A stretch of 64,000 nt of DNA, taken from assembly GCF_007747215.1 (NCBI RefSeq), contig NZ_CP036273.1, forward strand, positions 2,526,322 through 2,590,321, read 5' to 3'. Positions 37,684 to 64,000 of this stretch are shown here, in pieces. Both the position numbers and the translations under genes were made by a program. The DNA comes from Urbifossiella limnaea. Lineage in GTDB: Bacteria > Planctomycetota > Planctomycetia > Gemmatales > Gemmataceae. Every line of letters begins with the position of its first letter. Positions within the stretch are counted from its first letter, which is position 1. The notes under the pieces were generated by a model. It saw only the letters and a list, made by a program, of their open reading frames with translations, searched no databases and was not told the DNA's origin.

Positions 37684-39237
37684 TCACGCCCCGGCGACGG
37701 GTTCGCCCTCGGTGTCGCGGTGGGGTCGGCCGGCGGTGTAGGTGTCACGGCGAGTCGCATAGTCCGGCCGTTGCTCCGACGGTGCCAACTCCATCGCCTG
37801 TTCCTGCCGACGGACCGCCTCGGCGAAGTCGCCAGCTTCGGCCAGCGCCGCGGCCAGCGTGTCCACGTAGCTCGCCACGCGGAAGCCGGTCAGCTCGCAC
37901 GCCCGGGTCGCGTCCGTCACGGCCGCTGGGCCGTCGCGCAACCCATCGACGGGGCACGTCGCGCGCAGCCACGCCAACACGTTCAGGGTCGCCGGGTCGT
38001 CGGCGTTCCGCTCCTTCGCCATCAGATGGTCGGACAGTGCCCCCGAGTGGTCGCCGAGCTGCGCCCGGACCGCGCCGCGCAGGTTCAGCGGTCCCACGCC
38101 CACCTCGTCGCGCTCGACCGCGGCGGTGGCGTCGAGGAGGGCGCCGGTCAGGTCGCCCGACCGGCGTCGCGCCACGGCGCGGGCCACGTACCCACGCGGA
38201 CTATCGGGCGTCAGTCGGATCGCGGTCGTGAAGTCGGCCTCCGCGGCGTCGCGGTCACCGCGCTCGTGGTGGAGGTAGCCGCGCTGCACGAAAACGGCCG
38301 GGTCGTCGGGGGCCAGCTCGGCGGCGCGGTTGAAGTCGGCGAGCGCGCCGTCCGTGTCGCGGAGGCGGACGCGCGACAGCCCGCGGTTGAACACCGGGGC
38401 CACGTCGTCCGGGTCGAGCTTCACCGACTCGCCGAAGTCGGCCGCGGCCGCCGCGTAGTCGCCTAGCTCGGAGTGGGCCACGCCGCGGAGGTTGAACGCC
38501 GCCGCGTTGTGCGGGTCGAGGCGGAGTACCCACGTGAAGTCGTTGACCGCCTTGGGGTGCTCGCCGCGAGCCGACCACAGCCGGCCGCGGTGCCAGTAGG
38601 CGTCGGGGCCGGTCGGGTTCAGCCGCAGCGCCGTCGCCAGGTCCGCGAGCGCCTCGTCGCCGCGGCCGAGGTCGTTTAGCGACAGCGCGCGGTAGACGTA
38701 CGCGCGGGCGTGGTGCGGGTTCAGCGCCAGTGCGGCGTCGTAGTCGGCCACCGCGTCGGCGTGGCGGCTGAGCGACGACAAGGCGTTCCCCCGGTTGAAC
38801 AGCGCCCGGAAGGTCTGCGGTGCGAGCGCCAGCGCGGCGTCGAAGTCCGCGAGTGCCGCCTCGTACTCGCGGAGTCGGCTGCGGGCCGCGCCGCGGCCGT
38901 TGAGCGGGTCGGGGTCGTCGGGGGCGAGCTCGGCAGCGCGGGTGTAGTCGGCGACGGCATCGGCCAGGTCGCCGGCGTCGGCGCGGGCGGTGGCGCGGTT
39001 GTGGAACGCGGCCGCGAAGTCGGGTCGTAGGTCGATGGCCCGCGTGAAGTCGGCAACGGCCGCGGCCGGGTCGCCGGCGGCGGCGTGGGCGTTACCGCGG
39101 AGGAACAGGAGTTCGGGGTCCGTCGGGTCGAGGTCGATTGCCCCGGAGAACACGTCGGCCGCCTTCTCGTACTCGCCGCGGCGGACGTAGGTCTGGCCGC
39201 GGCGGACAAGGGTCGGCAGGTCGGGCACGAAGCTCAT
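37684..39237 (-). CDS. tetratricopeptide repeat protein
   Basis: A 517-residue protein made of about 13 consecutive TPR units of 34 residues. Examples are RGEYEKAADVFSGAIDLDP, GDPAAAVADFTRAIDLRPDF, GDLADAVADYTRAAELAPDD and GDYAAAAADFGESVKLDPDD. The superhelix would bind other proteins. There is no signal peptide. The last two units diverge (GPAAVTDATRACELTGFR, GDFAEAVRRQEQAMELAP) and look like the family of planctomycete TPR proteins that end in a basic tail. Starting at 39237 removes an unrelated upstream extension. The partner is unknown. Confidence 0.88.
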   Translation of the reverse strand: MSFVPDLPTLVRRGQTYVRRGEYEKAADVFSGAIDLDPTDPELLFLRGNAHAAAGDPAAAVADFTRAIDLRPDFAAAFHNRATARADAGDLADAVADYTRAAELAPDDPDPLNGRGAARSRLREYEAALADFDAALALAPQTFRALFNRGNALSSLSRHADAVADYDAALALNPHHARAYVYRALSLNDLGRGDEALADLATALRLNPTGPDAYWHRGRLWSARGEHPKAVNDFTWVLRLDPHNAAAFNLRGVAHSELGDYAAAAADFGESVKLDPDDVAPVFNRGLSRVRLRDTDGALADFNRAAELAPDDPAVFVQRGYLHHERGDRDAAEADFTTAIRLTPDSPRGYVARAVARRRSGDLTGALLDATAAVERDEVGVGPLNLRGAVRAQLGDHSGALSDHLMAKERNADDPATLNVLAWLRATCPVDGLRDGPAAVTDATRACELTGFRVASYVDTLAAALAEAGDFAEAVRRQEQAMELAPSEQRPDYATRRDTYTAGRPHRDTEGEPVAGA

Positions 39238-60053: not shown

Positions 60054-60103
60054 GTGGCATCCTCCGAGTTGAATTGCGTCGCATCGGACTGGCGGCCGAG
60101 CAG

Positions 60104-60175
60104 TGGACGCTACAGGATTCGAACCTGTGACCACTCCCGTGTAAGGGGAGTGCTCTACCGCTGAGCTAAGCGTCC
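60104..60175 (-). tRNA. tRNA-Val (UAC anticodon)
   Basis: A 72-base gene with a 7-bp acceptor stem (GGACGCT with AGCGTCC), D-arm GCTCAGCGGTAGAGC, anticodon stem-loop CTCCC-CTTACAC-GGGAG with anticodon UAC, variable loop TGGTC and T-arm ACAGG-TTCGAAT-CCTGT. The discriminator base is A and CCA is not encoded. It begins four bases after the hscB stop and is followed by two small genes and hscA, so it lies inside the isc operon. Confidence 0.96.
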
Positions 60176-61640: not shown

Positions 61641-62858
61641 TTAGTGCGCCGCCCACTCGATCGTCTTCAAGTCCACGCCCTGCTGCACCAGTTCGAACAG
61701 CGGCGACATCTCGCGCAGCCGGTTCACCTCGCGGGTCACGAGGTTCACCACGAAATCGACCTCGGCCTCGGTGTTGAACCGGCCCAGGCCGAAGCGGATG
61801 CTGCTGTGCGCCAGTTCGTCGCCGACGCCCAGCGCCCGCAGGACGTAGCTCGGCTCCAGGCTCGCGCTCGTGCACGCCGAGCCGCTCGACACGGCCACGT
61901 CCTTGATGCCCATCATCAGCCCCTCGCCCTCGACGTAGGCGAAACTGATGTTCGCGTTCCCCGGCAGCCGCTCGGTCGGGTGGCCGTTGAGGTAGCTCTC
62001 GGGGAGCACCTCCATGATCCCCTTGCGGAGCCGTTCCCGCAGCGCGAACGTGCGGGCGGTCTCCTCCGGCATCACGCGGCGGGCGATGTCGCAGGCGGTG
62101 CCCAGGCCGACGATCAGCGGCACCGGCAGGGTGCCCGACCGCATCCCGCGCTCGTGGCCGCCGCCGTCGATCTGCGGCTCCAGCCGGACGCGCGGGTCCT
62201 TCTTGCGGACGTACAGCGCCCCGATCCCCTTCGGCCCGTAAATCTTGTGGGCCGTGAGGCTCAGCAGGTCGATCCCCATCGCCTCCACGTCCAGCGGAAT
62301 CTTGCCGACGGCCTGCACCGCGTCGGTGTGGAACAGCACGCCGCGTTCCTTGCACATCTTGCCGATGGCGCCGATCGGCTGGACCGTGCCGATCTCGTTG
62401 TTCGCGGCCATGACCGACACGAGGATGGTCTTGTCGGTGAGGGCTTCCTTCACCTGCTCGGCGTGGACCTGGCCGTACTTGTCCACCGGCAGGTAGGTCA
62501 CCTGGAACCCGTCGCGCTCGAGCCGCTTGCAGGTGTCGAGCACGGCCTTGTGCTCGGTCGCCTGCGTGACGATGTGGTTCCCCTTCTTCTTGTACATCGC
62601 GGCGACGCCCTTGATCGCCAGGTTGTTGCTCTCGGTGGCGCCGCTGGTGAAGATCACTTCCTTCGGGCTGGCGCCGATGACGCCGGCGATCTGGTCGCGG
62701 CTCTCCTCGACGGCGCTCTCGGCCTCCCACCCGTAGGCGTGGCTGCGGCTGGCGGCGTTGCCGTACTTCTCGGTGAAGTACGGCAGCATGGCCTCGACCA
62801 CGCGCGGGTCGCACCGCGTCGTCGAGTTGTTGTCCATGTAGATCGGCAGCGTCGACAT
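61641..62858 (-). CDS. iscS: cysteine desulfurase IscS
   Basis: A 405-residue PLP enzyme that takes sulfur from cysteine and passes it to Isc[21 protein letters not shown] opens, [17 protein letters not shown] and [20 protein letters not shown] follow, the PLP lysine is in [19 protein letters not shown] and the mobile catalytic Cys in [18 protein letters not shown]. It is IscS rather than NifS or SufS on operon context. ATG 62858 has AGGA eight bases upstream; ATG 62867 is possible. Confidence 0.95.
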
Positions 62859-62879
62859 CGTTCGCATCCTGGGGGTGAT

Positions 62880-63377
62880 TCAGGCCGGGGTGCCGAGCGG
62901 ACGGGCCGACCCGCAACAGCCGCCGGACAGCACCGGCAGCGCGGGGTAGGCGGTCGGCTTCGGCGTCGCCGGGTCGAACAGCTCGGCCAGCGTCACCCCG
63001 CGGAGGACGCCGACGAGCCGGTTGTGAACCTCGGCCATCGGGCCGTAGATCGTACACACGTCGGTCAGTGAGCAGGCGTCGGCACCGTCGTGCTGCGACG
63101 GGTTGCAGGCCGTCAGTCGGAACCCGTCCTCGACGGATTCGAGCAGTTCGGCGAGGCTGATCGAGTCCGCCGGCCGGGCCAGGGCGTAGCCGCCCTTCAC
63201 CCCGCGGTGGCTCGTCACAAAGCCTTTCTGGCACAGCTCTTTGAGAATGTTTGCCACGAAGGGACGGCTCAGGTTGAACGTCTCGGCGATGCTGCGGGCG
63301 TTGCCGCCGACGGGCTTGCCGTGCAGGTACGACAGAATCAGGAGGGCGTAGTCCGCTTTGCGGCTCAGGAGCGTCAT
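62880..63377 (-). CDS. iscR: Rrf2-family iron-sulfur regulator IscR
   Basis: A 165-residue winged-helix regulator. LLSRKADYALLILSYLHGKP and NLSRPFVANILKELCQKGFV form the DNA-binding domain, HRGVKGGYALARPADSISLA continues it, and Cys91, Cys102 and Cys108 (CNPSQHDGADACSLTDVC) are the usual cluster ligands, with wider spacing than Escherichia IscR. A Gly-Cys-Cys tail is extra. It should sense the iron-sulfur supply and control the isc operon that it opens. Confidence 0.92.
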   Translation of the reverse strand: MTLLSRKADYALLILSYLHGKPVGGNARSIAETFNLSRPFVANILKELCQKGFVTSHRGVKGGYALARPADSISLAELLESVEDGFRLTACNPSQHDGADACSLTDVCTIYGPMAEVHNRLVGVLRGVTLAELFDPATPKPTAYPALPVLSGGCCGSARPLGTPA

Positions 63378-63427
63378 CGCTCGCCCTACTGGGGTGGGAT
63401 CGGGGAATCAGCAGCACCGCACTCCTA

Positions 63428-63455
63428 TTTGTAGACAGAAGATCGCCCCAGGCAA
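63428..63455 (-). promoter_or_regulatory. putative iscR promoter
   Basis: On the minus strand TTGCCT (63455-63450) and TACAAA (63433-63428) stand 16 bases apart, about 50 bases before the iscR start. The match to the sigma70 consensus is fair. It lies just beyond the terminator-like hairpin of the upstream RNA gene. Confidence 0.4.
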
Positions 63456-63484
63456 GTGCGATTTCACGAAGCGGTTCGCGGGAA

Positions 63485-63783
63485 GCGAAAACGCCAACCG
63501 GCGGTCGTCGGCCGCGCGGGAACGCGGTGCGACGGCCGCCGGCGGCGGGGTGTCGGGTTTCGGCACAGACGCGCCCTCCGGGCCGCACTCGTTAGCCAGG
63601 GGGTTTGCAGGTTCGACCCTGCGGCCAGTCGCCCGGACGACCGGCGCCCCCCGGCACCTCCTGAAGGAGGCGTACCGCGCGGCTCGCGTTGGGACCCACG
63701 GGTCGAGGTGGGGTTGACCGGCCACTCTTGTTGCGCGGTCCGGGCCGCGACGAACTCAGGCTTGAACCCCACCCGACACCTCA
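63485..63783 (-). ncRNA. candidate structured non-coding RNA, family unknown
   Basis: From a near-consensus minus-strand promoter (-35 63818-63813, -10 63795-63790) the transcript should start near 63783. Its first bases (63780-63771) are the exact complement of 63549-63558, giving a 10-bp helix that closes a 212-base domain. Inside are clear hairpins: 63654-63667 (CCTCC-TTCA-GGAGG), 63621-63642 (8 bp, one G-T pair) and 63605-63620 (GCAGG with CCTGC). A terminator-like 12/13-bp stem (63542-63530 with 63510-63498) and a T-rich tract follow. RNase P, tmRNA, SRP and 6S signatures were not recognised. No protein frame in it has a ribosome site. Confidence 0.5.
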
Positions 63784-63789
63784 AGAGCA

Positions 63790-63818
63790 ATCATACGGAA
63801 CGGGTGTTCACTAGTCAA
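63790..63818 (-). promoter_or_regulatory. near-consensus promoter of the candidate RNA
   Basis: Minus-strand TTGACT (63818-63813) and TATGAT (63795-63790) are 17 bases apart, each with five of six consensus bases. This is the best promoter match found in the window. It points toward iscR, across the candidate RNA. Confidence 0.7.
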
Positions 63819-63826
63819 GCCCCGCC

Positions 63827-63846
63827 GGCGGCGTTGCAACGCCGCC
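63827..63846. repeat. 20-bp perfect palindrome
   Basis: 63827-63836 and 63837-63846 are exact reverse complements with no spacer. The half-site GGCGGCGTTG resembles the inner part of the family B hairpin at 36090-36131. It stands between the RNA promoter and the divergent glycosyltransferase gene and could be a protein-binding site. Confidence 0.45.
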
Positions 63847-63893
63847 GCACCCTGGGTACAGTTCCCGCGCACAACCCCACCCACCGGGCGAGC

Positions 63894-64000
63894 ATGGACG
63901 CACCCCTTCGCATCAGCCTCGTCCTCCCGGCGTTCAACGAGGCCGCAGTCATCGGCCGCGCCGTTGCCGAGGCGGAAGCCGCGCTCGCCGGCCGCTTCGC
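63894..64000 (+). CDS. family 2 glycosyltransferase (start only)
   Basis: The first 35 codons of a gene cut by the window end. MDAPLRISLVLPAFNEAAVI carries the GT2 start signature (strand followed by PAFNE), the segment that binds the nucleotide. Divergent from the candidate RNA and iscR. The rest of the gene is needed to place it in a subfamily. Confidence 0.75.
   Translation, partial: MDAPLRISLVLPAFNEAAVIGRAVAEAEAALAGRF

Follow-up and report, generated by a model that had tools for sequence, protein, structure and literature searches.

A promoter and a predicted structured RNA upstream of iscR

The window analysed here is a stretch of 64,000 nucleotides of the Urbifossiella limnaea genome. 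Near its right end, on the minus strand and upstream of iscR, it carries a promoter, a predicted RNA reading from around position 63783 to around 63490, and a 3' hairpin (Table 1). A first-pass annotation had described a strong promoter (TTGACT, 17 bases, TATGAT), and this was confirmed as a near-consensus site at 63818-63790 of the minus strand; it is the sole sigma-70-like site found by the scan in 62000-64000, where shuffled sequences yield 0.1. The structured RNA postulated downstream of it was likewise borne out by the sequence, as ~290 nt with a good fold, no protein coding and no Rfam family. The fold of 63783-63485 (minus strand) has a minimum free energy of -171 kcal/mol (z = -3.39), a value equalled by none of 200 shuffles. 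A protein gene was considered and rejected: only 15 of the 224 indels between the copies in this genome are multiples of three, which breaks the frames, and the open frames in this stretch are of the kind usual in high-GC DNA.

Table 1. Features of the unit upstream of iscR (window coordinates)
Feature	Position	Strand	Evidence
Promoter, CTTGACT (-35) and TATGAT (-10), 17-base spacer	63790..63819	minus	Promoter scan; both boxes kept in 9 of 9 U. limnaea copies
Operator-like palindrome TGAAC-ACCC-GTTC within promoter spacer	63798..63810	minus	Alignment of copies
Conserved RNA body, 235 nt (model R1)	63549..63783	minus	237.5 bits to R1, a covariance model built from 15 copies and partly from this copy itself; fold z = -2.68; pair statistics
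Closing helix P1, 5' strand, GGUGUCGGGU	63771..63780	minus	Fold; 96.7% of cells paired, outer five pairs
Hairpin P3, invariant loop CCCGGA	63738..63743	minus	44 of 44 copies covering the loop
Hairpin P6, invariant GGUCG-UCCGGG-CGAC(C/U)	63625..63640	minus	59 of 59 rows and all 44 fuller copies; loop invariance partly by selection, as the pattern that collected the sister copies contains UCCGGG
Closing helix P1, 3' strand, ACCCGACACC	63549..63558	minus	Fold; 96.7% of cells paired, outer five pairs
Terminator-like 3' hairpin region closing the conserved unit (GGCGTT)	63490..63548	minus	Scan finds the last part; kept in 9 of 9 U. limnaea copies

The 10-bp closing helix seen on first inspection is present, with 63780-63771 paired with 63558-63549. 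An alternative pairing overlapping it, which had been put forward as a possible switch, does exist, but a switching role is unsupported, both helices being kept and competing over only about three G residues. The stem of hairpin P3 varies while its loop, CCCGGA, is constant, and this loop and the P6 loop, UCCGGG, are exact complements over six bases. We infer that the two may form a kissing pair, within or between molecules; RNA dimers would also be possible, because UCCGGG contains the palindrome CCGG. In an alignment of 59 rows, itself fitted to the structure, 98.6% of cells pair. Double-sided changes occupy 40 cells in eight pairs (shuffles, 7; slid controls, 1-6), although as events they are few and are mostly differences between species or subtypes. 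Compensatory types are found at six pairs among the U. limnaea copies alone. With stems kept and some compensatory changes, the alignments point to an RNA under constraint.

The 3' end was more equivocal. The first-pass annotation ended the RNA in a terminator-like stem with a T tract; the hairpin is conserved, but TTTT is unique to the copy upstream of iscR, the other U. limnaea copies having GGCGTTC or GGCGTTTC at that position. Intrinsic termination is therefore uncertain.

Within the RNA, an Rfam search with E values up to 10 returned no match on the RNA strand worth the name; two overlapping matches (E 7.7 and 7.9) have most of their length upstream of it, and five copies searched at E up to 1 gave none. 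A literature search turned up no planctomycete RNA of this kind. The assignment to no recognised family is thus supported, with conserved fold, promoter and 3' hairpin and some compensatory changes.

Two other RNA genes were called in the window. A tRNA-Val (TAC), confirmed by Rfam, lies directly downstream of the isc cluster (60103-60175, minus strand). The tRNA-Phe reported by ARAGORN at 38259-38349 (plus strand), 91 bases long with the unusual anticodon AAA, is not confirmed by Rfam and is probably a false call.

Dispersed copies in two genomes

The whole unit, from the -35 box to the 3' hairpin (~330 bp), exists in nine copies at unrelated intergenic sites in the U. limnaea genome. A DNA search recovered at least seven copies of the RNA unit, and nine were returned by each of three further searches, namely those with a left-end pattern, a right-end pattern and the covariance model R1. 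The right-end pattern also has six one-mismatch matches without the RNA, about the number expected by chance. The edges of the unit are sharp in the alignment of copies, similarity starting with the CTTGA of the -35 box and ending with GGCGTT past the 3' hairpin. The nine copies fall into two subtypes, A (six copies) and B (three), and none overlaps a gene. Their neighbours are unrelated: iscR, a prolyl-tRNA synthetase-like gene, carB and a sigma factor, a threonyl-tRNA synthetase-like gene, protein kinases and others, the names being putative readings of the sequences.

The closest sequenced relative is the metagenome-assembled genome (MAG) SCN18_30_10_14_R2_B_71_11, with an IscR 87% identical to that of U. 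limnaea. In this sister genome 50 contig stretches carry the hairpin pattern, and the copy number is put at about 33 to 50, because 33 of the matches are uncut by contig ends and 17 are cut. One of the 33 (L101) has no recognisable 5' half. In one sister copy (L138, 7047-7280, plus strand) the RNA body is intact and an unrelated promoter, TTGATT..AAATAAT, replaces the GGGCAGGCAA motif that is usual there. Other dispersed repeats, such as CCGGAGGGGCGGCCGTGCCTCGCCCGGG and CGTCCGGCGGATGACGGAGAACGGCAACCC, often adjoin the sister RNA units, as in the flanks L106, L116, L120, L127 and L136. Apart from large paralogous families, the copies of the two genomes share no neighbours.

Beyond these two genomes, the covariance model gave no convincing match in 93 further Gemmataceae, ten of which were searched again with looser filters to the same result, and the family was not found in 391 further genomes sampled across the phylum. 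An exact pattern gave no convincing match elsewhere among 84,980 species; such a pattern misses diverged relatives and the filters of the large searches were strict, which leaves room for a family that is wider but diverged. The best distant match of the covariance model in the genus and family (E 0.004) is short, and we treat it as chance, as we do the two exact pattern matches outside planctomycetes, in Nocardioides oceani and one deltaproteobacterial MAG. A phage or plasmid origin was rejected, since viral contigs, plasmids and phages contain no match to the RNA.

Four orthologous sites were compared between the two genomes, and none of the insertions is shared. The iscR site of the sister is flanked by the same two genes and contains no RNA, and an outgroup (G092) likewise has none upstream of iscR. 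The interval between carB and the sigma factor gene measures 4 bases between aligned blocks in the sister and 391 in U. limnaea, and that upstream of thrS measures 12 and 773, respectively, with the right end of the RNA unit on the junction; both inserted blocks are larger than the unit and their intergenic flanks have diverged, so that the exact ends of the element are not proved by them. A second outgroup (G090) lacks most of the block upstream of thrS, and the proS site of the sister is occupied by other genes, without the RNA. The RNA-bearing block before thrS also contains a 94-aa ORF (L064, 5240-5521, plus strand; G000:C1:3805240-3805521), which the sister lacks at this site. Because the sister lacks all four insertions and the outgroups lack the two checked, the unit appears to have spread recently, and recent spread in each lineage would be the simplest account of these comparisons.

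The conventional marks of a DNA transposon were sought. Inspection of the nine copies revealed no terminal inverted repeats, the left end reading CTTGA and the right end GGCGTT. Across 30 copies with both flanks, direct repeats of 3-8 bases at all offsets showed no excess over mispaired flanks and hence no target-site duplication. No larger element sharing these ends was found in the U. limnaea genome, and neither end occurs without the RNA; a related full-length element with different ends is possible. Large planctomycete families aside, no recurrent neighbouring protein or linked transposase was found near the copies. Taken together, the sequence comparisons argue for a real, new family of structured RNA genes, which has apparently spread through two planctomycete genomes as a unit.

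An operator-like palindrome in the promoters

In all nine U. limnaea promoters the palindrome TGAAC-N4-GTTC is placed between the -35 and -10 boxes. Its half-sites are exact in seven and have one mismatch in the remaining two, and the central four bases vary. The same palindrome precedes a Y-family polymerase gene (CTTGACTGAACACCCGTTCACAAT), the start of an IntI-like integrase (31 bases ahead) and two small similar ORFs, in each case near a TTGAC box. Genome-wide, the pattern has 33 matches against 9 for a reversed control, and matches other than those named are mostly intragenic. It was searched for in the lexA and recA promoters of U. limnaea and is absent from both. The RNA promoters of the sister have the unrelated motif GGGCAGGCAA in its place.

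GAAC-N4-GTTC is the LexA operator of Bacillus, which the U. limnaea palindrome resembles. LexA-like control of these RNA promoters is plausible, because the palindrome is common to them, the Y-family polymerase and the integron-type integrase. The E. coli site is noted not to be the one used by LexA of planctomycetes (PMC3108266).

Two of the loci concerned deserve a separate description. The IntI-like integrase (L222, 2777-3758, plus strand; G000:C1:29.3 kb) has TGAACGCCCGTTC 31 bases before its start codon, and the locus is possibly a planctomycete chromosomal integron controlled by DNA damage. The small ORFs (L221 and L181; G000:C1:7445062 and 4841164) begin MTATLNALPDL and MTAAPDIAALA, respectively, and have TTGACA together with the palindrome in their promoters.

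Nature of the family

The reading that we favour, as a probable one, is a new non-autonomous, dispersed and recently spread family of small-RNA genes, either trans-acting or selfish. Each gene would be transcribed on its own from its own promoter, and the transcript would fold into a compact body locked by the CCCGGA/UCCGGG kissing pair. The RNA would act in trans, or serve its own spread alone, rather than being the leader of the next gene, and the units would be mobilised by a factor encoded elsewhere. The least certain step is control: a LexA-like repressor at TGAAC-N4-GTTC perhaps holds expression in U. limnaea, and the RNA would then rise upon DNA damage. Among known kinds of element the closest appear to be MITEs that make small RNAs and multicopy small RNAs, although the MITE tests for ends and target duplications failed.

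An ordinary trans-acting small-RNA family, useful to the cell, multiplied by duplication, equalised by gene conversion and not mobile, is the less probable but serious competitor. Such RNAs would pair with mRNAs or bind a protein. All nine U. limnaea copies are intact, with promoter and 3' hairpin present, and the linkers drift, unlike the promoter boxes and the RNA, which are kept: copies A1, A2 and A3 are 99.1-99.6% identical over the 235-nt body, and the six bases preceding it agree at only zero to two positions. Multicopy small RNAs are known, such as the trans-acting LhrC family of Listeria (PMC4132741), which resembles the new family in having several near-identical genes with their own promoters and perhaps one stress regulator. 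The new RNA is a larger molecule with extensive folding, in which no conserved single-stranded seed was noticed, and it is distributed differently. Its copies are scattered one by one at sites not shared between the two genomes; they number up to about 50 per genome, and none was found in close relatives or elsewhere in the genus. This is better explained by spread than by duplication, whether tandem or segmental.

The A1-A3 pattern also bears on how the favoured family of spreading RNA genes multiplied. It concerns three copies only, and would fit both gene conversion confined to the transcribed part and copying via RNA; in the sister copies, unlike A1-A3, promoter and RNA body diverge together. 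Copying through the transcript is possible because the three bodies are nearly identical while the linkers before the start are unrelated. A bacterial counterpart of SINEs, that is, a free-standing unit of promoter, RNA and hairpin without transposon ends, with damage-type control and possibly copied through its transcript, is conceivable, but we regard it as unlikely.

Also unlikely is a MITE-like DNA transposon, the RNA being a by-product and its structure being selected as DNA ends for a trans-acting transposase. Copy number, intergenic spread and empty sites are what such an element would leave, and MITEs encoding small RNAs are reported, such as the QMITE elements of Coxiella (PMC10969869); like them, the new units are short, non-autonomous, intergenic, numerous, lineage-specific and, judging from the predicted transcript, RNA-producing. 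They differ from MITEs in that terminal inverted repeats, target duplications (in 30 copies) and a larger element with the same ends were all missing from the searches described above. Moreover, each unit is a full gene of promoter, RNA and hairpin, and the promoter boxes and the two inner hairpin loops rank among its most conserved parts.

The remaining readings are very improbable. On one of them the units are free-standing omega RNAs, which would serve an IscB- or TnpB-like nuclease as guide scaffolds and draw the guide from the adjacent DNA; these would likewise be structured RNAs tied to mobile DNA that can be multicopy (HEARO, RF02033; PMC9755519) and could account for many separate RNA units without a protein gene. 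The U. limnaea copies start with TTGA(T/C/A), recalling a known IS605-type target motif; however, the sister units do not, no copy adjoins a nuclease gene, neither HEARO nor any other Rfam family matches, no guide is evident, and the -10 box and the conserved body leave no space between them for one at the 5' end. The other reading, first suggested for this RNA, is that it acts in cis as leader or switch of iscR and the iron-sulfur genes. This might be read from the position of the RNA on the same strand 112 nt ahead of iscR, and from the same-strand gene within ~120 nt downstream of seven of the nine U. limnaea copies, but it is hardly tenable when iscR in the sister (with the same neighbours) and in G092 has no RNA, the other eight copies stand beside unrelated genes with no common function, and sister copies are mostly downstream of genes, often between convergent ones.

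A divergent housekeeping RNA, also once considered, was rejected as very unlikely on copy number and distribution, with nine copies in one species, at least 33 in the other and none found in their relatives. The RNA shares with 6S RNA (RF00013) a long closing helix and the character of a promoter-driven bacterial RNA of a few hundred nucleotides; it differs in its many copies and branched fold, and a search with RF00013 gave no match in it. The matches of that model in the genome lie at other places, and a better one, at G000:C1:664935-665139 (plus strand; L047/L031; 33.7 bits against a cut-off of 46.4), is a candidate divergent planctomycete 6S RNA.

We believe the present family to consist of RNA genes that stand alone, carry their own promoter, fold into a locked structure and spread, a kind rarely described in bacteria. 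One genome has as many as about 50 copies and none was found in near relatives, which would amount to a natural experiment on movement and on useful versus selfish RNA; both questions are directly testable through the empty sites and the pair of complementary loops.
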